DNA of 20,036 nucleotides from a virus. The stretch spans positions 1-20,036 of IMG/VR virus record IMGVR_UViG_3300032676_000250; one strand, 5' to 3'. A program made the translations under genes and the position numbers. Shown in pieces: positions 7,201 to 17,957 of this stretch. The notes under the pieces were generated by a model. It was not told the DNA's origin. It saw only the letters and a list, made by a program, of their open reading frames with translations, and ran no database searches. The first letter of the stretch is position 1. Each line of letters starts with the position of its first letter.

Positions 7201-8092
7201 TGGTAAATCCTAGTCCTGAAGTAGTGTTAGCAGTAAACACCATGATCATGCTACCAGTCGAAATACCAGTACCACTTGCTACTGCTAATGATGTAGTACC
7301 TGGTGACAAGTTTGATGTAGATACTGTTGTAGTTGGGCCGTTAGCTGATGTTGGAGCATAGATAATAACAACATTCTGACCAACTGAGAAATTAGAGCTA
7401 TTGGCTACAGTTAGACCACGTTGGTTTTCGCTGGCTACGTTGGCTGTTACATAGGTAGTTGCTGGCGGACTTGCTACATATGGGTTCCATGTAATTGCAA
7501 AGTCACCACTGGTCCAGTTAGGCTGATTGTTGCCTGCCATACCGTTGTTACTGATAACTACAGAAGTTTGTGAGTTAGAAGTAATTGCAGTTCCTGTAAA
7601 TCCAACATATGAAATAATGTTAGCATAAACATCTGAACCCGGAACTTCATAGATACTTGGGTTATCGTTATTAGTAAACAAACTTTGCCATTTGGTATTT
7701 TGTAGACCATACTCAAAGTCAGCGTCAATTAATGACTGTGGATTAGCAACACGCATACGTTCAACAGCATCTGTAGCAAATGGACGTTGTGCTTGATAAG
7801 CAGCTTCAACGTAAATAGCTAATTTGTCAGTACTACTCAAACTTGAAGTATTTGTGTTCAATGTAATTGTAGTTACACCGTCAATACTTGTTGGAAAATT
7901 AGCATTCGGACCGCTGGCCCAAGAAATAGTACCACTAAGTGTAGTATCAGCAAAGTTATAAATGAACGTCTGAGATGTTGCATCTAAAATTGCTAATACC
8001 TGAGCTGAACCATAGTTGCCTGGTATTTGTACGTATCCTAAACCTGCTGTGTTTGGTGAAAATACGTATTGTTTAATCTGTTGTCTTGCCAT
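4250..8092 (-). CDS. Large conserved virion structural protein (1280 aa)
   Basis: A complete 1280-codon gene starting MARQQIKQYVF and ending in TAG. The central part (THRAADGGVLLG, ARQTKKYFRYQSGKGLMW, VRAGIFDAQNG, then RGMTHTVTSI, DGTGPSGYLMD, WTWYGAGFVDYGVRG and YMRTGNLPARYE) matches from memory a large structural protein conserved in T4-like cyanophages and other marine myoviruses. The N-terminal half is Thr/Ser/Asn-rich and probably beta-structured. There is no signal peptide or membrane segment. It starts 3 bases after the stop of the 134-aa gene, is the last gene of the virion operon and is followed by a strong terminator. A tail, baseplate or fibre-anchor role is likely but the exact position in the virion cannot be told from sequence. 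Confidence 0.9.
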   Translation of the reverse strand: MARQQIKQYVFSPNTAGLGYVQIPGNYGSAQVLAILDATSQTFIYNFADTTLSGTISWASGPNANFPTSIDGVTTITLNTNTSSLSSTDKLAIYVEAAYQAQRPFATDAVERMRVANPQSLIDADFEYGLQNTKWQSLFTNNDNPSIYEVPGSDVYANIISYVGFTGTAITSNSQTSVVISNNGMAGNNQPNWTSGDFAITWNPYVASPPATTYVTANVASENQRGLTVANSSNFSVGQNVVIIYAPTSANGPTTTVSTSNLSPGTTSLAVASGTGISTGSMIMVFTANTTSGLGFTTELMTVTAGGGTGSLTVARNRLGTNAGNAYITSGSAVYVVAQAELANIVSIPSSTTINVNRAYMNTTPQDLLTQGSVIQAINWDASNGSGTNVEILQTTTIGTTAGNTATIARGAMGTTAVSSVPVGSPIVRLSGIFVAGSANLPLIGINLPGHHFVANGAVSTTNHYDTNSEGQYQIVNTYTNYFTYYPRRGSTATVGYQLNRWDTQIRYAGFYGTASLPQVSFTSDGATPSTITGTTAYAHGLAPATPILANLIAATNSVYCNGSFTILSIPSPTTFTFQAKAGASVTGPITGAIYARPSAFFTHRAADGGVLLGTGTPHHGASAARQTKKYFRYQSGKGLMWTSGTLLGSNFDLTAVSSTGTGAGSTITVTTDQEHQLQIGANIQISGITTTGYNGYYLVQAITGDHTFQVNAASSLGDTGANVIYQNQPKAVTVSWIGASVRAGIFDAQNGVFFENTGTQINVVQRSATYYMTGTVSVEVATNLCTGDGTCHFTQQYVAGDKIVLRGMTHTVTSIIDDNQLTISPVWRGLTNQTRIKPSKVVERRVQQAQWNLDRLDGTGPSGYLMDPTKMQMLMIQYTWYGAGFVDYGVRGQNGNYVFCHRFMNNNLNYQAYMRTGNLPARYEAINDTPYQILNANSTAYNYTGINSTDTTFTILDSTQFPTPTPTQPVYVLIDNEILKCTGITQGTTVGGVTPATVTGVTRAATFNLWQDGANKSFSAGSAAAHNANVSVRVISATSAPSLNHWGSAIILDGGFDVDRGYAYTYSTANVAFPTGLAAGNTTVTSFAMRLSPAVSNQIPGDLGQRDLVNRAQLLLQNMIINFSGNNVSTTTGARYLIEGILNPNNISTTSTTWGFMYNSPYNATTNPSGAIQPSYTQIAYGNVTGAAGQTGQISFTTSGSGVTWATGGERLFAIPVNYTNSGQLDLSMVKQLGNSGIPGYNVYPDGPELLAINITALVPTANVAVTGEIQIQWNESQA

Positions 8093-8095
8093 CTT

Positions 8096-8500
8096 TTATG
8101 CCCCAAAAATAAGTGAGTTTGCTAACAATGTAGCTTTTGTAGTAGTTGCCAATGTGCCATACTGTACTGTGCCCGGAACGAACATTGAGTTAGTAAGTGT
8201 ATTGTTACTTGGTATACCAGTATTTAATACATCTCCGTAGACCATGACAAAAAAGTGTCCTAGTAAACTCGAACTAGGAGCAGTTGCAAAAACTATAGTA
8301 GTTCCGCTAAAATAATAATCAACACCTGGATTAAGTATTGCTCCATTGGCTACTACAATAGTAGCATAGGGGTTACTAACTGTATAACTCTTTCCAGAGA
8401 CTGTTGTATTAAAAGATGATAAGCTACCGTTAAATTGACTTGAAATATCATCTAATTTAACAAAATTACCTACCTGTGGTGTTTGACCTAAGTATGACAT
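8096..8500 (-). CDS. Small fibre-associated virion protein (134 aa)
   Basis: Begins MSYLGQTPQ and carries a module of the form IVVANGAILNPGVDYYFSGTTIVFATAP, which is common at the N-termini of phage fibre proteins. The adjacent 499-aa protein begins MSYVGLKP and has the matching IVQVGNTLQIPGVSYTAAGTTLTF, so the two share a paralogous N-terminal module and this protein is little more than that module. A Shine-Dalgarno AGGGGA lies 5 bases before the ATG and overlaps the end of the upstream gene (8-base gap). Probably a fibre attachment or accessory subunit; the role is inferred. Confidence 0.85.
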   Translation of the reverse strand: MSYLGQTPQVGNFVKLDDISSQFNGSLSSFNTTVSGKSYTVSNPYATIVVANGAILNPGVDYYFSGTTIVFATAPSSSLLGHFFVMVYGDVLNTGIPSNNTLTNSMFVPGTVQYGTLATTTKATLLANSLIFGA

Positions 8501-8508
8501 GTTTTCCC

Positions 8509-10008
8509 CTAAACTCTTCCGACTACAACTTCAATCACGCTTTCTAATCCATCGTGATCTTCTAATGCTTTACCAATTACTGATCCAATCACTGGGTTAG
8601 CTTCTGCACGGGCATAACCATTGCCGGCACTTACCATCATGTCACCTTTCTTAACTATACCTTGTACTCGGCAAGGAACACGTCCTGTAAGAGCAACACT
8701 AACTGAAAATTGTCCATTTAGTGAATCGTATGCTAGGTCTTCATTCATTAAGAAAGCAGGTTTAGTAGAAACAACACCTGCTATAGTAGTATCCATATTA
8801 GTTGTACTTTGTGTTACTTCGTATGCACCACCGAATGATACCACAGTACCTGGAGCATAGTCGGCATCACCGATATATTTTTCTGCAACGTCAGCGTATT
8901 GTGCATATTGTGCTGTGGCAAAAATTGTATTAAATCCTGCACCACTTGCACCAATATTACCTACTCCGCCAGTGCCACCATTACCGATAGCAATACTACT
9001 GTTTTGTCCATTAACATACATTGTTCCTTGTACACCAACACCACCGCCTACCACTAATGCACCAGTAAGTGATGTAGTTGATTGCGTAGTTGCTGTAACA
9101 TTCGCATTGCCGATCCATAAGTCTGCATAGACATAACTACCGTCGTTAGTTGTAACTAATGTACCTGGTTGTGTGACTAAGTTAGCAAATAATCTATAAC
9201 GTTTGTCTGATTGCGCACGATATAAACCTGTGTAACGTTGTGTTGTACCGTCGTTGTATGTACCAACAAAACCTTGGTCAACAGAGTCACTTACGTTTGT
9301 GTTAGCTAAAAACAAGAAAGGTGTATTAACAACTAAACTATTTGTACTTGTGGTATTAAATGCCCCTGCTACAGTTAATCCGCCAGAGATAATCATACTA
9401 CCACCAACGTTTAAGCTCTTAGCAACACCCATACCTCCTGCTAAAATAACAGCACCCGTTGCACTACCGGATGAATCTGTAGAATTAGTAACATGCAATG
9501 TACCAGCAACATATTGTGATCCACTGATACCAACACCACCATTAACTACTAAAGCACCCGTAGTTGAACTTGATGAAACCCCTTGTCCGCTGTCACTCAT
9601 GGTTACACGAGTATTACCTGCTAAAGTAAATGCTAGACTGTTGGTGCTTGGCCAGTATATACCTGTAGAAGCCGCCGCAGTTGAATAAAGACTTGGAGCA
9701 GTAGTTGTTCCTACAGGAAAGGCATTTGCACTAAGATATACAGTATTAAGGCTACCAGCAATAAATGTTACACTAACATTATTAGTACCTGCTGTAGGGG
9801 CATTGCCTGAAGTAAATGTCAGTGTAGTTCCGGCCGCTGTATAACTAACACCAGGAATTTGTAGTGTATTACCTACCTGTACAATAATATCAGATGCCTG
9901 ACTAATACCCTGTTGTAGAGAAAATTGTAATGTAGAACCAGTGCCACTAAAATATTGTGTAGCAGTACTTAAAGTCTGTTGAACTGGTTTTAAACCAACA
10001 TAAGACAT
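8509..10008 (-). CDS. Tail-fibre-like protein with conserved C-terminal phage domain (499 aa)
   Basis: Three parts are visible. Residues 1 to about 90 are the MSYxG...IPGVSYTAAGTTLTF module shared with the 134-aa neighbour. The middle carries at least three TGALVVxGGxGVxGxxY repeats like those of the giant fibre gene. From about residue 371 to the end is a conserved domain starting YADVAEKYIGDADYAPG, with GVVSTKPAFLMN, ALTGRVPCRVQG and KKGDMMVSAGNGYARA, which is recurrent at the C-termini of marine phage fibre and structural proteins. It loosely recalls the intramolecular-chaperone/autoproteolytic ends of some tailspikes, but I cannot confirm a catalytic residue. The start is preceded by GGAGATT, with only one base between the previous stop and the ATG. 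Confidence 0.88.
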   Translation of the reverse strand: MSYVGLKPVQQTLSTATQYFSGTGSTLQFSLQQGISQASDIIVQVGNTLQIPGVSYTAAGTTLTFTSGNAPTAGTNNVSVTFIAGSLNTVYLSANAFPVGTTTAPSLYSTAAASTGIYWPSTNSLAFTLAGNTRVTMSDSGQGVSSSSTTGALVVNGGVGISGSQYVAGTLHVTNSTDSSGSATGAVILAGGMGVAKSLNVGGSMIISGGLTVAGAFNTTSTNSLVVNTPFLFLANTNVSDSVDQGFVGTYNDGTTQRYTGLYRAQSDKRYRLFANLVTQPGTLVTTNDGSYVYADLWIGNANVTATTQSTTSLTGALVVGGGVGVQGTMYVNGQNSSIAIGNGGTGGVGNIGASGAGFNTIFATAQYAQYADVAEKYIGDADYAPGTVVSFGGAYEVTQSTTNMDTTIAGVVSTKPAFLMNEDLAYDSLNGQFSVSVALTGRVPCRVQGIVKKGDMMVSAGNGYARAEANPVIGSVIGKALEDHDGLESVIEVVVGRV

Positions 10009-10009
10009 A

Positions 10010-10348
10010 TTATGTAATCTCCATGATGCTCATATATGCATCAACTGATCCAGATGCTGTACTAGATACATAAATGCTGTCATTTGACTGTAATACCATC
10101 TTCTGATCACCACCGACTATAACTAATGTACCACCTGCTGAAATCGGTGCGCTTTTAACTAAGTTAACATTACCCGAAGCAGTATTAACGTATGCTGTTG
10201 CACTAATTGTTGATCCCGAAGTATTTGCTATTGAGAACCCAACCACAATAGTTGTAGTAGCTGGAGTATAGTTGACTACATAGCTACCTACTTGGGTTGC
10301 AGTTGTACCAACGTTTGCGCTAAATTTTCTATAAAATGTATTTGCCAT
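10010..10348 (-). CDS. Small virion protein of marine T4-like phages (112 aa)
   Basis: Starts MANTFYRKFS and has the pattern VKSAPISAGGTLVIVGGDQKMVLQSNDSIYV, which recurs in short structural proteins next to fibre genes in marine myoviruses. It is a compact, likely all-beta protein without signal or membrane segment. AGGAA lies upstream of the ATG. It sits between two fibre-like genes in the late virion operon. Probably a decoration or fibre-attachment subunit; this is by context and remembered pattern, not a specific assignment. Confidence 0.82.
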   Translation of the reverse strand: MANTFYRKFSANVGTTATQVGSYVVNYTPATTTIVVGFSIANTSGSTISATAYVNTASGNVNLVKSAPISAGGTLVIVGGDQKMVLQSNDSIYVSSTASGSVDAYMSIMEIT

Positions 10349-10360
10349 CTTGTTTTCCTA

Positions 10361-10705
10361 TTAACCACCTAATGCTATTGCTAATGCTGTGGCATCAGCT
10401 TGAGATGCTGCATTTATGCCTTTAATTGTTTCTGCTACTAAAACTGTAACTGTATTTGCGGTTATAAGGTTAGCCGTTAAACTTGCTACTGTTTCGTTTA
10501 GACTCACTGTTAAATTTGCCACTGTTTCATTTACTGCAACGTTGATCACGTTGGCAGTTTCGTTTGACATGGTAGTATTACCAACAATGGTGGTAGCACC
10601 TTGTACTATAAGATTACCTGCAATTAGTACATCGCCTGTTGCGGCTGTGATAGTCGTAGATCCGACTGTTAGTCCATTATGGACTACGAAGTTTTGATTA
10701 GCCAC
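10361..10705 (-). CDS. Short fibre-like protein, first gene of the virion operon (114 aa, GTG start)
   Basis: The start is GTG at 10705 (ANQNFVVHNGLTVGSTTI follows); a nearby ATG in another frame hits a stop within ten codons. The N-terminal part has the LTVGSTTITAATGDVLIAGNLIV pattern seen in phage fibre N-termini. Residues about 45-90 are a run of Asn/Val/Thr-rich near-repeats (VNETVANLTVSLNETVASLTANL) likely to form a repetitive beta or coiled fibre stalk. It is the first gene downstream of the late-like promoter at 10739. Function inferred from composition and position. Confidence 0.8.
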   Translation of the reverse strand: MANQNFVVHNGLTVGSTTITAATGDVLIAGNLIVQGATTIVGNTTMSNETANVINVAVNETVANLTVSLNETVASLTANLITANTVTVLVAETIKGINAASQADATALAIALGG

Positions 10706-10816: not shown

Positions 10817-12436
<1,620 letters not shown>

Positions 12437-12730
12437 TTAGTTCTCCTCAATAACTGCGTAAATTTCTGATTCTTTTAGAACAAGTAATTCTTCACCTTCA
12501 ATTTTTACAAGTTCACCTGTGTTTTTGCCAAACAACACACGGTCATTAACTGTTAATGACATTGGAATTAGAGTGCCTTCTTCTGTTCTGCGTCCTGCAC
12601 CAACAGCTAACACTACGCCTTGATCTGGTTTTTCTGCTACGTTGTCAGGGATAAAAATACCGCCTGCTGTTTGTGTGTCTGCATCGACACGTTTGATTAC
12701 TACACGATCGTGTAATGGATTTAATTTCAT
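12437..12730 (-). CDS. groES: GroES-type co-chaperonin
   Basis: A 97-residue protein, the same length as E. coli GroES. It starts [14 protein letters not shown], followed by the mobile loop at about residues 16-32 with GGIFIPD; IFI at 25-27 takes the place of the IVL tripeptide that contacts GroEL. The later [24 protein letters not shown] is the usual C-terminal strand pair. It caps the GroEL ring. This is a true bacterial-type GroES, not a T4 gp31-like protein. It is preceded by AAGGAGTAAG and by a sigma70-like promoter about 65 bases upstream. Confidence 0.97.
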
Positions 12731-13410: not shown

Positions 13411-13432
13411 ATTAGTCTTTCATAATAGATTA

Positions 13433-13454
13433 GAAGAAACCCGCCGAAGCGGGT
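13433..13454 (-). terminator. Rho-independent terminator of the tmRNA gene
   Basis: On the minus strand, ACCCGC-UUCG-GCGGGU is a 6-bp GC-rich stem with a stable UUCG loop, followed by TTTCTTCT. It sits about 50 bases after the tag stop codon and ends the ssrA transcript before the 191-aa gene. Confidence 0.85.
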
Positions 13455-13501
13455 GGTTGTTTTGGTAACAAGGTAAGTCCTACCCCGGACGTTGCAGTTT
13501 C

Positions 13502-13588
13502 TTAGGCTGCTACAGCTTCGGTACCACGAGCGAAGCGGAAGCCACGACCCATAGATACTTTAACTACGTCTTTAGTATTTTCGTTTGC
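13502..13588 (-). other. tmRNA tag reading frame (28 codons plus stop)
   Basis: Resume codon GCA at 13588; the tag starts ANENTKDVVKV, passes through SMGRGFRF and ends ARGTEAVAA, then TAA. ANEN at the start and a hydrophobic-Ala-Ala end are normal for ssrA tags, and the VAA end suits ClpXP-type recognition. Length is unusual: bacterial tags typically have about 8-15 encoded residues. Within the frame, GCTTCG (13536-13531) and CGAAGC (13520-13515) are perfectly complementary around a 10-nt loop, so a helix is translated as part of the tag. Confidence 0.85.
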
Positions 13589-13670
13589 ATTTACTTGAGT
13601 TTGCGTTTTACATCCACATGATGTGTTGACCCTTATCCTATCCCGCCACGTCGAAACCAAATACACCCCC

Positions 13671-13699
13671 ACTCAAGACACTTTTTCAAATGCCCTCAG
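13671..13699 (-). other. Intervening segment between the two tmRNA pieces
   Basis: The 29 nt between the discriminator A and the coding-piece 5' end, taken with that A, fold into a hairpin of 13 positions with one G-G mismatch and a GAAA loop. This hairpin stacks directly on the acceptor stem. In permuted tmRNA genes such a segment is removed by processing to leave separate acceptor and coding RNAs, after which CCA is added. Confidence 0.8.
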
Positions 13700-13780
13700 T
13701 GGAGGTGGCCGGGGTCGAACCGGCGTCCGCAACGATATTACTTTAGAGCTTATACAACAATTCTTTAATACAATACTTAT

Positions 13781-14161
13781 CTAGGTATTAGGTTTTACTA
13801 CCACTTCTGGTGCTCGTATAGTCATTGGGTTCTTATCATCAGTCCAACGTGCTTTATTAGGACTAAACAACCTCTGTCTAAAGCTGGCCATTAGGCCTGG
13901 ACCCCAATAGGTACTAACCATACTTTCTGCAAATTTATCATACTCTGGGTCAGTGAATCTAGTCCAACAGCCTTCATGTAGCGCAGGTCCTGACTCTGAC
14001 TCTGTAGCATAGGCCCTATAGGGATAATCTGAAGTTTTAACTCGACAATCTTCTAGGGTTAATACAATGTACCCGCCACTGTCATTTGGCATGTACATTT
14101 CAGTTGGTTCATCTGCCATTGCAGACAATGACACTAATAGTGCAAGTGTAGCGATCCTCAT
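13781..14161 (-). CDS. Exported small protein of unknown function (126 aa)
   Basis: The N-terminus has a short signal peptide: MR, a hydrophobic stretch IATLALLVSL, then SAMA followed by DEP, giving a probable cleavage after residue 16. The mature part of about 110 residues has two cysteines (DCRVK and EGCWTRF) that could form a disulphide in the periplasm. No lipobox and no known domain. GGAGG lies eight bases upstream of the ATG. The stop abuts the tmRNA gene. The gene-start region has a direct repeat CGGGAT-N5-CGGGAT. A role in the host envelope is inferred from the signal peptide only. Confidence 0.85.
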   Translation of the reverse strand: MRIATLALLVSLSAMADEPTEMYMPNDSGGYIVLTLEDCRVKTSDYPYRAYATESESGPALHEGCWTRFTDPEYDKFAESMVSTYWGPGLMASFRQRLFSPNKARWTDDKNPMTIRAPEVVVKPNT

Positions 14162-14222: not shown

Positions 14223-14540
14223 TTAGGCAACGATTCCTGCACGTGTTTTGATAGCCTCAATGCTTAATGCACTCTTAGGACGGCTTAATTTAACAGCATA
14301 ATTATGATTGTATTTCTCATCTGCAAGTGTAATAGCTTCTGCAAAACGAGGAGTATCCATTAATGTTGTTGCTTTTAAGTGTGTAACTGCATCAGCTTTA
14401 GACAGCGGTTCTGGAAGTTCATACAATTCGATATCAGTATGACCATCTTTGACCAACATCTTAACACGGCTAACAAAATCATTAGCAAAACGCACTTTGG
14501 TAACACCGTTAAGTGTCGAAACTCCAACTACTTTAAACAT
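14223..14540 (-). CDS. Conserved phage protein of unknown function (105 aa)
   Basis: Begins MFKVVGVSTLNGVTKVRFANDFVSR, with HTDIELYELPEPLSKADAVTHL after it. I recall this pattern as a small conserved protein of T4-like marine phages without known function. Predicted cytosolic and mixed alpha/beta, with no signal or membrane segment. AGGAGAA lies upstream of the ATG. It is the first gene after the sigma70-like promoter at 14581-14609, so early expression is likely. Confidence 0.87.
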   Translation of the reverse strand: MFKVVGVSTLNGVTKVRFANDFVSRVKMLVKDGHTDIELYELPEPLSKADAVTHLKATTLMDTPRFAEAITLADEKYNHNYAVKLSRPKSALSIEAIKTRAGIVA

Positions 14541-14580: not shown

Positions 14581-14609
14581 ATTATACTACCAAAATATCA
14601 AAAAGTCAA
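14581..14609 (-). promoter_or_regulatory. Sigma70-like promoter upstream of the 105-aa gene
   Basis: On the minus strand, TTGACT (14609-14604), a 17-base spacer and a consensus TATAAT (14586-14581). It starts 6 bases after the stop of the 148-aa gene and would drive the 105-aa gene, the exported protein and possibly the tmRNA. Confidence 0.85.
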
Positions 14610-14614
14610 CCAAA

Positions 14615-15061
14615 TTATTCATAAATCCAACCTAAATTTTCAATGTTATGGATCCAAGTATAAATTGGAGTTGTAAATTCCAAAGTCCAAATACCATTCC
14701 ACCCTAGATAGGTATGATTAGTTAACTCTGGTTCACCTTGTGTGTGATGTGGGTAATTTGGTCTATATATCCCAGACCAACCAAACTTAGGATTGGTAAT
14801 ACCATTGAATTCAATTTCCTCAATTACTACTGCAGTATCATAGCCATTGGCCATATCTGAATCTAGGTCAGTCTTGCCCAGTAGTTCAACTTCAAGGTGA
14901 TGTACACCTGCAGGCTTATTCAGATGATAGTAATAGGTTATAGTATCCCTTAGAGAAGTTTGTCTATACTCCCCATCTAGTCCAACTCTAACCGTGGGAG
15001 GTTCCCTAAACCAAATTGGTTTTAATTTAACTACAATATTAACTGGGTAGGTTCTTTCCAC
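14615..15061 (-). CDS. Conserved phage protein overlapping the radical SAM gene (148 aa, GTG start)
   Basis: The start is GTG at 15061 with GAAGAG upstream, 23 bases inside the end of the radical SAM gene, which implies coupled translation. The middle (HHLEVELLGKTD, AVVIEEIEFNGI) and aromatic-rich end (SGIYRPNYP, TYLGWNGIWTLEF, WIHNIENLGWIYE) resemble a family I recall from marine myoviruses, probably a beta-sandwich. Many exposed-looking Trp/Tyr/His residues could suit carbohydrate or surface binding, but this is inference. No signal peptide. Being tightly linked to a radical SAM enzyme, it may be a partner or substrate. Confidence 0.85.
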   Translation of the reverse strand: MERTYPVNIVVKLKPIWFREPPTVRVGLDGEYRQTSLRDTITYYYHLNKPAGVHHLEVELLGKTDLDSDMANGYDTAVVIEEIEFNGITNPKFGWSGIYRPNYPHHTQGEPELTNHTYLGWNGIWTLEFTTPIYTWIHNIENLGWIYE

Positions 15062-16349
15062 GTGTAAACTCTTCTGTTAGTTCTGGATATAATTCCACTG
15101 CATCAAATCCATAGACCTTGTCCCACTTTAGGCAATGCTCTACCAAACTATTAGTTCCCGGCCGGAATGTCGGGGTTGTTTCTAATAGATTAAGTGCTTG
15201 GATAACCTGTAGTTTAATTGATTTCTGATAGTTATGAGGATCACTTTCGTTAAATGGTGCCGTGCTGACATCGGCTAACTTGGTCATAAGTTCTGCATAT
15301 CTAAGTTTGTATGCTTGTTTTACCCCTTGTGGCAATGCCGATACACTTAGATAATCAGGATTGGTAACAATTAAACTTTTAATTAAGAATTGATGGTCTA
15401 GACAATATTCTAATAAAGTATGATAGTATCCAATGCTTAATGCACTGATCGCAGGCCGTAATGTAATTGAAATCGAATCATTACATAATTCTTTATAACG
15501 TTGTATATTCGTCAAGACGTCTTGTAGTTTAGATCCTTGACGAATATAGTCATTGTGTTTGGTCACAGTTTCTATACTAATTTCAATTCCTGTACGAGGA
15601 AACTTTGACAATTTTTTAATTAGGTCAGGTTTGAATACTGTGCCATTGGTTACAAAACTAAATGACACATCGAATCGTTTATGTAGAGTCATAAAGTCCA
15701 CCAGCTCTTCAAAACGATTAGTCAGCAGTGTTTCTCCGCCCATTAGATGTATGTTTTTAAGATGGGGTATAGATAAGAGATCATTTAAGAATCTAGTCCA
15801 AACCTCTGAATCTTTAGTCCAATCAGTACCTAAGAATTGTCGATGTTCTGCATGCCCCCACTTGACCATTTGGGTAGCAATAGTACTACTTGCACCACTC
15901 CAACACATCTTACAGGCCAAGTTACAATAGTTGCCTAGGTCAATGTGTAGATCGACTGGTAGGGTATTAGTAAGACCATCCATGCCTTCACTGAATTTAA
16001 AATTATCATAGTGCGGGCTTTGTTCAAAACTGTCATAAAACGCAATTTCTGTAAATATTGCACTCTTATGGTTAGCACGATGTCTGCGACTTGTGCCACC
16101 AAATTCTGTTTCGTTATAACAGCGATTACAAACAGGAGTTCCACTATTGTCTAATACGTCTAATCGAAATTGCCTTACTGGTTTGCTGTTAAACCAATCA
16201 TTCAACGACATTGTTTTGATATTGTACTGTGAGGCTTTTGAAGGAGGATATAATTTCATATCCTCTTGACAACAGATGCCGAGACTCCCATCCCAATAGA
16301 TGTGAGCCTCGTACCATGGTGTATTACAAAATACGTTTGTATTGGCCAT
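15039..16349 (-). CDS. Radical SAM protein with N-terminal twitch/SPASM-like cysteines (436 aa)
   Basis: The radical SAM core carries C142-NLA-C146-KM-C149, the CxxxCxxC motif that binds a 4Fe-4S cluster and S-adenosylmethionine, followed by GGET at 204-207. Ahead of it are further cysteines (C8, C26, C27, C74 and C77, in CNTPWYEAHIYWDGSLGICC and CNRCYNE) that could bind an auxiliary cluster as in SPASM or twitch domains, here N-terminal to the core. Such proteins recur in large marine phages with unknown substrates; relatives modify peptides, nucleic acids or sugars. Its ATG overlaps the clpP stop in TAATG and its end overlaps the 148-aa gene, so the three are translationally coupled. Enzyme class is secure; the reaction is unknown. 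Confidence 0.93.
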   Translation of the reverse strand: MANTNVFCNTPWYEAHIYWDGSLGICCQEDMKLYPPSKASQYNIKTMSLNDWFNSKPVRQFRLDVLDNSGTPVCNRCYNETEFGGTSRRHRANHKSAIFTEIAFYDSFEQSPHYDNFKFSEGMDGLTNTLPVDLHIDLGNYCNLACKMCWSGASSTIATQMVKWGHAEHRQFLGTDWTKDSEVWTRFLNDLLSIPHLKNIHLMGGETLLTNRFEELVDFMTLHKRFDVSFSFVTNGTVFKPDLIKKLSKFPRTGIEISIETVTKHNDYIRQGSKLQDVLTNIQRYKELCNDSISITLRPAISALSIGYYHTLLEYCLDHQFLIKSLIVTNPDYLSVSALPQGVKQAYKLRYAELMTKLADVSTAPFNESDPHNYQKSIKLQVIQALNLLETTPTFRPGTNSLVEHCLKWDKVYGFDAVELYPELTEEFTRGKNLPS

Positions 16350-16969
16350 TAACGCTGAGTAATTACTTCGTCGGCTAGGCCGTAGGCTACTGCTTCTTCT
16401 GCTGATAAGAATGTATCAAACTTCATAGTTTCAAACAGTTCATCGTAGGTTTTACCTGCGGTATTGTGCTTGACATACAGTTGAGTTAGACGTTCATTTA
16501 AACGCTTGCTTTCTTCCATTGAACGCACAGCATCTTCAAACTGTAGTTCTTGTACGTGTACACTACCACGTGTACCAGGAGTACCTGAACTCACACGGTG
16601 AATCATTGTACGGCTTTCTGGTAGAACAAAACGTTTACCTTTGGTACCCGCCTGTGCTAGGAAACTTCCCATACTACATGCTTGACCTAAAACAATAGTT
16701 CTCACATCAGGTTTGATAAACTGCATAGTATCATAGATAGCCAAACCAGCAGTTACACTACCACCTGGACTATTGATATAGAATAGGATGTCTGTTTCTG
16801 GACTTTCACTTTCTAGGTATAACATCTGTGCTACGATTGAACTGGCAGTATGTTCATTAACATCAGTGTCTAACATTACAATACGATCTTTAAGTAGACG
16901 TGAATAAATGTCATAGGCACGTTCACCTTGACTTGTGCGCTCTACTACCATTGGGACTAAATTTGACAT
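16349..16969 (-). CDS. clpP: ATP-dependent Clp protease proteolytic subunit ClpP
   Basis: A 206-residue serine peptidase that forms a barrel and degrades proteins fed by ClpX or ClpA. The catalytic triad is visible: Ser99 in GQACSMGSF, His124 in [10 protein letters not shown] and Asp185 in [12 protein letters not shown]. The N-terminus ([25 protein letters not shown]) matches the processed E. coli N-terminus, so there is no propeptide. Ser-to-His spacing equals E. coli (25 residues), but His-to-Asp is 61 rather than 49, so the handle region that joins the two rings is about 12 residues longer. No ATPase partner is in the window, so it would rely on a host or distant phage unfoldase. AAGGAAC precedes the ATG. 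Confidence 0.97.
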
Positions 16970-16988: not shown

Positions 16989-17240
16989 TTAACGGCGTTC
17001 TTGCTTCTCTTTACAAAATACGCACAAGCGACAACCAGGAATTGCTAGGCGACGTGCTTCTGGAATTTCGTCACCACACTCTTCACATTCTTCCAAACTC
17101 GGTTGTGCCGCTTGCTCTGCTAATTTGCGACGAACGTCTGCTACAGCATTCATATTATTATGAATAGCATGAAGCTGACCAAACTCTTCTTCAGCTAAAT
17201 TATTCATGAAGTTATCATCTTCTACTATAAGTTGTTTCAT
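16989..17240 (-). CDS. DksA/TraR-type zinc-finger protein (83 aa)
   Basis: The C-terminal half carries CEECGDEIPEARRLAIPG followed by CRLCVFC, the family zinc finger with C52, C55, C73 and C76 as ligands and an extra C70. The N-terminal half is acidic and helical. At 83 residues it is close to plasmid TraR rather than full-length DksA. Proteins of this type bind the RNA polymerase secondary channel and alter promoter choice, and short versions are known in phages. It is first in the operon with clpP and follows a consensus promoter, so it could be an early regulator of host or phage transcription. Binding to polymerase is inferred from family. Confidence 0.92.
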   Translation of the reverse strand: MKQLIVEDDNFMNNLAEEEFGQLHAIHNNMNAVADVRRKLAEQAAQPSLEECEECGDEIPEARRLAIPGCRLCVFCKEKQERR

Positions 17241-17363: not shown

Positions 17364-17957
17364 ATGAATATTTATTCTATCTATAAAGCCACTAACCTTA
17401 TTAACGGAAAATCCTACATAGGATTTGATGCCTGTTGGCCTACTCGACAAAAAGATCATAAACGAAATTATACTAAGAAAAATAATAAATTCTATGCTGC
17501 AATTCGTAAACATGGATGGAAGAATTTTAAATGGGACATTCTGTACCAATCCAATGACAAAGTTTATACTCATAAAGTTATGGAAGAACATTTTATAAGA
17601 GAATATAATACCCATTGCGATAGTGGGCACGGCTACAATATGTCGTACGGTGGCGACGGCGGAAACAGGTCTATAGAGACTATAGAAAAAATGAAATACA
17701 ACGCTGTTAATCGATCGCCGGAATATCAAGCCAAACTCAATGGGCAATTTGAAAAAGGCTGCATAGCATGGAATAAGGGGATGGTCGGTGTTTGGAAAAG
17801 GACTGAAGAGTTTAAAGAAAATCTTCGCAAACCGAAGTCTGAAAAATTTAAAGAAAATCTGCGGAAACCCAAACCCAAGGTTGTGTGTCGCATTTTTGAT
17901 AGAAAGGAAATGGCTATACAACATTATTCACAATGGATTAACCGATTATCTCAGTAA
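17364..17957 (+). CDS. GIY-YIG homing endonuclease with NUMOD3-like repeats (197 aa)
   Basis: The only gene on the plus strand. The N-terminal nuclease domain has SIYKATNLINGKSYIG (a GIY-YIG signature with Ser for Gly), a likely catalytic Arg in PTRQKDHK, the Glu in MEEHFIREYN, and the family GYNMSYGGDGG. Residues about 130-175 contain AWNKGM and a tandem EFKENLRKPK / KFKENLRKPK pair, DNA-contacting NUMOD3-like motifs. The C-terminal FDRKEMAIQHYSQWI looks like a DNA-binding tail. It would cut intronless or HEG-free relatives and spread by repair. TAGGAG precedes the ATG. Its last 7 bases overlap the end of the convergent 73-aa gene. It interrupts an otherwise one-directional gene array, as expected of an inserted element. 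Confidence 0.93.
   Translation: MNIYSIYKATNLINGKSYIGFDACWPTRQKDHKRNYTKKNNKFYAAIRKHGWKNFKWDILYQSNDKVYTHKVMEEHFIREYNTHCDSGHGYNMSYGGDGGNRSIETIEKMKYNAVNRSPEYQAKLNGQFEKGCIAWNKGMVGVWKRTEEFKENLRKPKSEKFKENLRKPKPKVVCRIFDRKEMAIQHYSQWINRLSQ

Follow-up and report, generated by a model that had tools for sequence, protein, structure and literature searches.

A circularly permuted phage tmRNA gene with a conserved, lineage-specific long tag in the company of phage clpP and groESL

We identified, on the minus strand of a 20,036-nucleotide stretch of viral DNA (hereafter the window; IMG/VR record IMGVR_UViG_3300032676_000250), a complete and intact circularly permuted (two-piece) tmRNA gene, located between phage genes coding for ClpP and for GroES/GroEL. 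Its tag is long and contains a core, KV.M.[KR].FRF, that recurs in tmRNAs on many contigs of a single huge-phage lineage and is conserved as a peptide. What is new is this lineage-specific, conserved, long tag on a permuted phage tmRNA, tied to phage proteostasis genes; we found no description of a private tmRNA tag linked to phage Clp proteins in the open-licence literature. We hypothesize, with slightly less than even confidence, that the gene yields a working two-piece tmRNA whose core is a phage-private degron, most likely routed to phage ClpA(S)P.

The gene was called by ARAGORN and recognised by two Rfam models of permuted tmRNAs, tmRNA_permuted (RF04321; 116.5 bits, cut-off 47, E 1.5e-22, full model, positions 13502–13759) and beta_tmRNA (RF01850; 100.2 bits, cut-off 84, whole model, 13545–13811). 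The one-piece standard model is not among the Rfam matches listed for the window, in which clan competition hides lower-scoring models, and a one-piece reading of the gene has no support. An earlier note, made from the letters alone, had placed a phage-encoded permuted tmRNA at 13456–13770, and both permuted models, as well as the phage structural genes in the window and its origin in a virus record (G000), bear this out; the span did locate the gene, leaving out only the terminator and some of the 5' leader. When we re-derived the anatomy from the sequence, the T-arm and the 3' acceptor strand again preceded the coding half, the two acceptor strands paired at all seven positions, with a G–U pair at position 3–70, and the spacer together with the discriminator A (position 13700) formed the near-perfect GAAA hairpin that had been described, with 12 pairs and one G–G mismatch (−12.1 kcal/mol, z −4.8). 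Folded with the acceptor strands, the spacer reaches −29.2 kcal/mol (z −7.6), which 0/200 shuffles equalled, and it is expected to be removed during maturation. The G3–U70 pair is present in 28/28 tmRNA loci examined, and the acceptor and T-stem show compensatory changes among relatives, in an alignment whose rows were picked by a pairing-favouring script, so that the counts lean towards structure. Model scores, shuffles and compensated pairs rule out an artefact or a chance origin (the coordinates of all features are collected in Table 1).

The same observations bear on whether the gene could be a decaying, non-functional capture of a host tmRNA. No phage SmpB was found in 35 records and the window copy does not encode CCA (A-CTG follows the acceptor strand), unlike most relatives, which encode ACCA; nevertheless, the fully paired acceptor stem with G3–U70, the compensated T-stem, the open tag frame and the terminator are all retained, and the same slot is maintained across many diverged contigs, which makes decay hardly credible.

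Table 1. Positions of the tmRNA gene, its parts and its neighbours in the window.
Feature	Position	Strand	Basis or remark
Permuted tmRNA gene, whole (ARAGORN tmRNA* extent)	13411..13789	-	ARAGORN, Rfam
T-arm GCCGG-TTCGACC-CCGGC, tRNA-like domain, acceptor piece	13708..13724	-	5/5 stem pairs
3' acceptor strand CACCTCC	13701..13707	-	Read from sequence
29-nt spacer (intervening sequence), hairpin with GAAA loop	13671..13699	-	Folding
5' acceptor strand GGGGGTG, start of coding piece	13664..13670	-	7/7 pairs with 3' strand
Tag reading frame ANENTKDVVKVSMGRGFRFARGTEAVAA and stop	13502..13588	-	ARAGORN call
Conserved tag core KVSMGRGFRF	13532..13561	-	Common to phage tmRNAs; pN/pS 0.33
Intrinsic terminator ACCCGC-TTCG-GCGGGT, then T-rich TTTCTTCT	13439..13454	-	Paired changes in L085
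p103, conserved 103–105 aa, upstream of tmRNA	14223..14540	-	21/21 loci
Sigma-70-like promoter TTGACT-17-TATAAT upstream of p103	14581..14609	-	11/12 consensus matches
clpP, catalytic Ser/His/Asp motifs intact	16349..16969	-	
DksA/TraR-type zinc finger protein	16989..17240	-	Adjoins clpP in 20/21 loci
groES	12437..12730	-	
groEL	10817..12433	-	

The tRNA-like part of the gene varies within the wider group. The T-loop is GGCAGNN or GGCGGAG instead of TTCGANN in L129, L202, L203, L212, L227 and L230, with the stem still paired, and most of these altered genes were missed by ARAGORN and detected by Rfam. Open reading frames were also observed in the spacer that separates the halves of the tmRNA: one of 150 aa within a 494-nt spacer in L261 (2468–3158), and others of 34–83 aa, apparently membrane-spanning, in L229, L142/L206, L219, L230 and L128. 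To our knowledge, protein genes nested within a tmRNA spacer are unfamiliar.

A permuted phage tmRNA is not a novelty in itself, as the OM43 phage Melnitz carries a two-piece tmRNA and 53 of 133 unique phage tmRNA structures are two-piece (Buchholz et al., 2022; PMC9004378); a tmRNA database paper lists 79 phage sequences and gives 10 aa as the commonest tag length (PMC11915505). Given these published counts, and at least 119 viral loci retrieved by a scan for the permuted-core pattern, the view of phage tmRNAs as one-piece, which the earlier note had given for those known to it, is out of date. Its proposal that the permutation points to the donor host lineage is weak: the beta model is the best fit for the window tmRNA, but among relatives that occupy this gene slot some score above the cut-off with the alpha model (L203, L214 and L230) and others with the beta model (L231, L232 and L234), so that a single donor host cannot be identified from the permutation. 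That a two-piece tmRNA would require RNA processing by the infected host is a reasonable expectation. The conserved phage-specific long tag and the clpP – tmRNA – groESL company, which are more unusual, had gone unmentioned.

Trans-translation tags normally have about 10 residues and are read by host proteases. The tag frame in the window is open and encodes 28 aa, with an Ala resume codon and a hydrophobic C-terminus (AVAA). When viral DNA was searched with a degenerate nucleotide pattern of the core, 26 stretches matched. Permuted tmRNA tags account for 25 of them; the match in L130 is due to chance and is not a tmRNA tag. One locus retrieved through the permuted-core scan, L085, has the core VKVSMGxGFRF as in the window, in DNA that is otherwise diverged. 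Across genomes from 84,980 species of bacteria and archaea, the core pattern produced 11 matches, none with an evident tmRNA-tag context, and in eight large phage contigs it does not occur outside the tag. No match to the window tag was found in isolate phages, where BLASTN with the tmRNA returned nothing beyond short chance-like matches, and no homologue of the tag core was found in solved structures.

To avoid the circularity of searching by tag pattern, a second set of loci was retrieved with p103, a neighbouring gene unrelated to the tag. A diverged version of the core (KVAMNKGFRF, KVAMGKNFRF, KVSMGRDFRF, KVKMAKGFRF, KVTVGKGFRF and KVTKARGFRF), is present in seven of these loci (L200, L202, L203, L212, L219, L245 and L258), and a more distant long tag, SFKFSGKGVKLASARREAVLA, in five (L217, L220, L222, L229 and L230). 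The pN/pS ratio of the core is 0.33, versus 0.86 for the five codons before it and 0.64 for the four codons at the end of the tag. When only the loci retrieved independently of the tag pattern are considered, the core still has a ratio of 0.39. Such conservation could in principle lie on the RNA, if the core codons took part in a tmRNA pseudoknot or a protein-binding site, and the core does diverge little in nucleotides among the closest members. However, the core contains many synonymous changes (TCT/TCA/AGT, CGT/CGC, GGT/GGC, TTC/TTT and GTA/GTG/GTC), with a pS of 0.53 as in the flanks, K, V, F, R and F stay constant and replacements are rarer than in the flanks, which indicates selection on the peptide and not on the RNA alone; conservation of the RNA is, in our view, a very improbable explanation.

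The main rival to a private degron is an ordinary two-piece tmRNA that tops up host rescue, with AVAA read by host ClpXP or ClpAP and the long middle of the tag being a trait of the lineage that has no special role. This would agree with the hydrophobic-Ala C-terminus of nearly all members, with the short host-like tags carried by two-piece tmRNAs of the same gene slot (L218, L226, L227, L231–L233, L241 and L261) and with the long tags of other sequence in other phages. Nevertheless, the core is better conserved than either the last four codons or the codons that precede it and persists across diverged contigs, where a neutral linker would drift, and we regard simple supplementation as unlikely, if a serious contender. 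The unrelated long tags belong to permuted tmRNAs of L024, L044 and L120, of L091, L092 and L102, and of L012, L016 and L080, and some of them are common to several contigs (ANAFKPEVTVPMSVFADQELVAA; ANDDSFDFAALSFTGNTVGGRVALAA).

The gene order around the core-tag tmRNAs is constant. In 25/25 core-tag records, clpP and groEL lie on the tmRNA strand within about 12 kb, in the order clpP – tmRNA – groEL, and the 21 mapped loci, which include duplicate assemblies and represent about 15 distinct ones, have the order dksA-like – clpP – p103 – tmRNA – groES – groEL, with variable genes in between; the single locus without a dksA-like gene next to clpP is cut by the contig end. Median pairwise identity among distinct loci is 79% for GroEL, 85% for ClpP, 70% for GroES and 64% for p103, and distances are correlated across the neighbourhood genes and the tag. 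In the wider lineage p103 alone, and not clpP, is fixed to the tmRNA slot. We considered p103 as a known adaptor and rejected this, as it has no Pfam, PHROG or fold match. Promoter-like sites comparable to that of the window are located 73–100 nt upstream of p103 in L166, L173 and L179, and a second sigma-70-like site, by consensus match only, precedes groES (12822–12794). Judging from these sequence signals, the strong consensus match at 14609–14581 likely starts a p103 – ORF126 – tmRNA transcript that ends at 13439, and groES – groEL likely forms a separate transcript. Just downstream of p103, L259 carries a dense tRNA array (14 tRNAs in 2.5 kb, 8046–10506), and in the window a GIY-YIG homing endonuclease-like gene is located upstream of clpP on the opposite strand (17364–17957, +).

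Between clpP and p103 the window encodes a Twitch-domain radical SAM/SPASM protein (15039–16349, minus strand; NF033640, 242 bits), of a family present in 12/21 loci. This gene, together with the basic-aromatic character of the core, would fit a role of the core outside proteolysis, as a functional peptide label: for example a nascent-chain element with an effect on ribosome release, a K/R/F-rich binder of membranes or nucleic acids, or a substrate of the radical SAM/SPASM enzyme. Since the family is missing from 9/21 loci that keep the core, the degradable-looking C-terminus is retained and clpP is always near, we consider such a label improbable.

The phage ClpP retains its Ser/His/Asp motifs in 15/15 records; most of the ClpP sequences have 10 additional residues in the handle area, following the region of the catalytic His, and only L166 and L167 are without them. 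An AAA+ protein of about 770 aa is encoded 42–60 kb away in 8/16 records, which are all those that extend far enough. It scores 828 bits with the ClpA model TIGR02639, below the curated cut-off of 993 and far above ClpB (647 bits), and both Walker A motifs, the D1 pore motif and the IGF ClpP-docking loop are present in 8/8 sequences. ClpS was found in 13/15 large records and ClpX only in two of 15 (G026 and G027), which disfavours ClpX as the partner in place of ClpA. The 20-kb window itself contains clpP; the presence of clpA and clpS, observed in longer relatives, would extend to the window phage by kinship. On contigs of at least 100 kb the long tag is associated with ClpP (12/12 against 2/7), a comparison uncorrected for kinship. 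Clp genes also occur independently of the long tag, since ClpA and ClpS are encoded by relatives with short host-like tags (L241/G029 and L253/G032), together with ClpP in G032. No SmpB was found in 35 phage records, many of them fragments, which implies the use of host SmpB.

In the mechanism that we propose, the expressed precursor would be cut by tRNA-processing enzymes of the host (RNase P and those acting on the 3' side), the 29-nt spacer would be lost and CCA would be added, alanyl-tRNA synthetase would charge the tmRNA via G3–U70, and host SmpB would bring it to stalled host ribosomes, which would append the 28-residue tag. The core, placed between the resume codon and the degradable AVAA C-terminus, sets this tag apart from host tags and would most likely act as a phage-private recognition element, delivering tagged proteins to phage ClpP with ClpA and ClpS, and the phage GroES/GroEL encoded next door would refold salvageable proteins. 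There is precedent for the tag sequence deciding the choice of protease, and this, with the co-occurrence of the tag core and the Clp genes, suggests that the core may steer proteins to phage ClpA(S)P. The more specific proposal of a private branch, in which the core KVxMxKxFRF is a degron read by phage ClpA(S)P and not by host ClpXP and GroESL is the folding arm, we put forward tentatively, as a possibility short of an even chance.

Among known systems, the window tmRNA resembles those of Melnitz and related marine myophages in being phage-encoded and circularly permuted, with no known phage SmpB partner; however, the ssrA of Melnitz is alphaproteobacterial (SAR11)-like and has a glutamine riboswitch (PMC9004378), whereas the window tmRNA is matched by the beta model, encodes a 28-aa tag that contains the conserved core, and is flanked by clpP on one side and groES/groEL on the other. 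With the betaproteobacterial permuted tmRNA (RF01850) it shares the permuted layout, a score over the whole model, G3–U70 and a short spacer, and it differs in its long tag, whose KVSMGRGFRF core the genome scan did not find in any tmRNA; in its relatives, T-loop, spacer length and acceptor sequence vary. Phage Clp proteins are also already known, as ClpA, ClpP, ClpS and ClpX are encoded by isolated jumbo phages such as Pseudomonas phage PA5oct, whose suite comprises ClpP, ClpA, ClpX, ClpS and FtsH. Such phages likewise encode ClpA, ClpP, ClpS and a chaperonin, and the closest isolate proteins have 64.7% identity (ClpP) and 43% identity (ClpA). However, the 12 kb around clpP of PA5oct contain no annotated tmRNA, whereas in the present lineage clpP is linked to a tmRNA that has a tag of its own. 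Mycoplasma and Mesoplasma also have long tmRNA tags, where the tmRNA is cellular and one-piece and the tags are read by Lon. Like the phage tags, they are long and have an internal segment that could switch the choice of protease, and differ from the phage case, in which the tmRNA is two-piece and the protease probably ClpAP.

A core conserved as protein and linked to the ClpP and chaperonins of the virus would amount to a virus rewriting the quality-control degron for its own protease. If this is true, the virus decides the fate of every protein released from a rescued ribosome. Whether the core determines the choice of protease can be tested directly, and a positive answer would add to the tools for protein degradation in bacteria a new degron/protease pair that is orthogonal to the host proteases.
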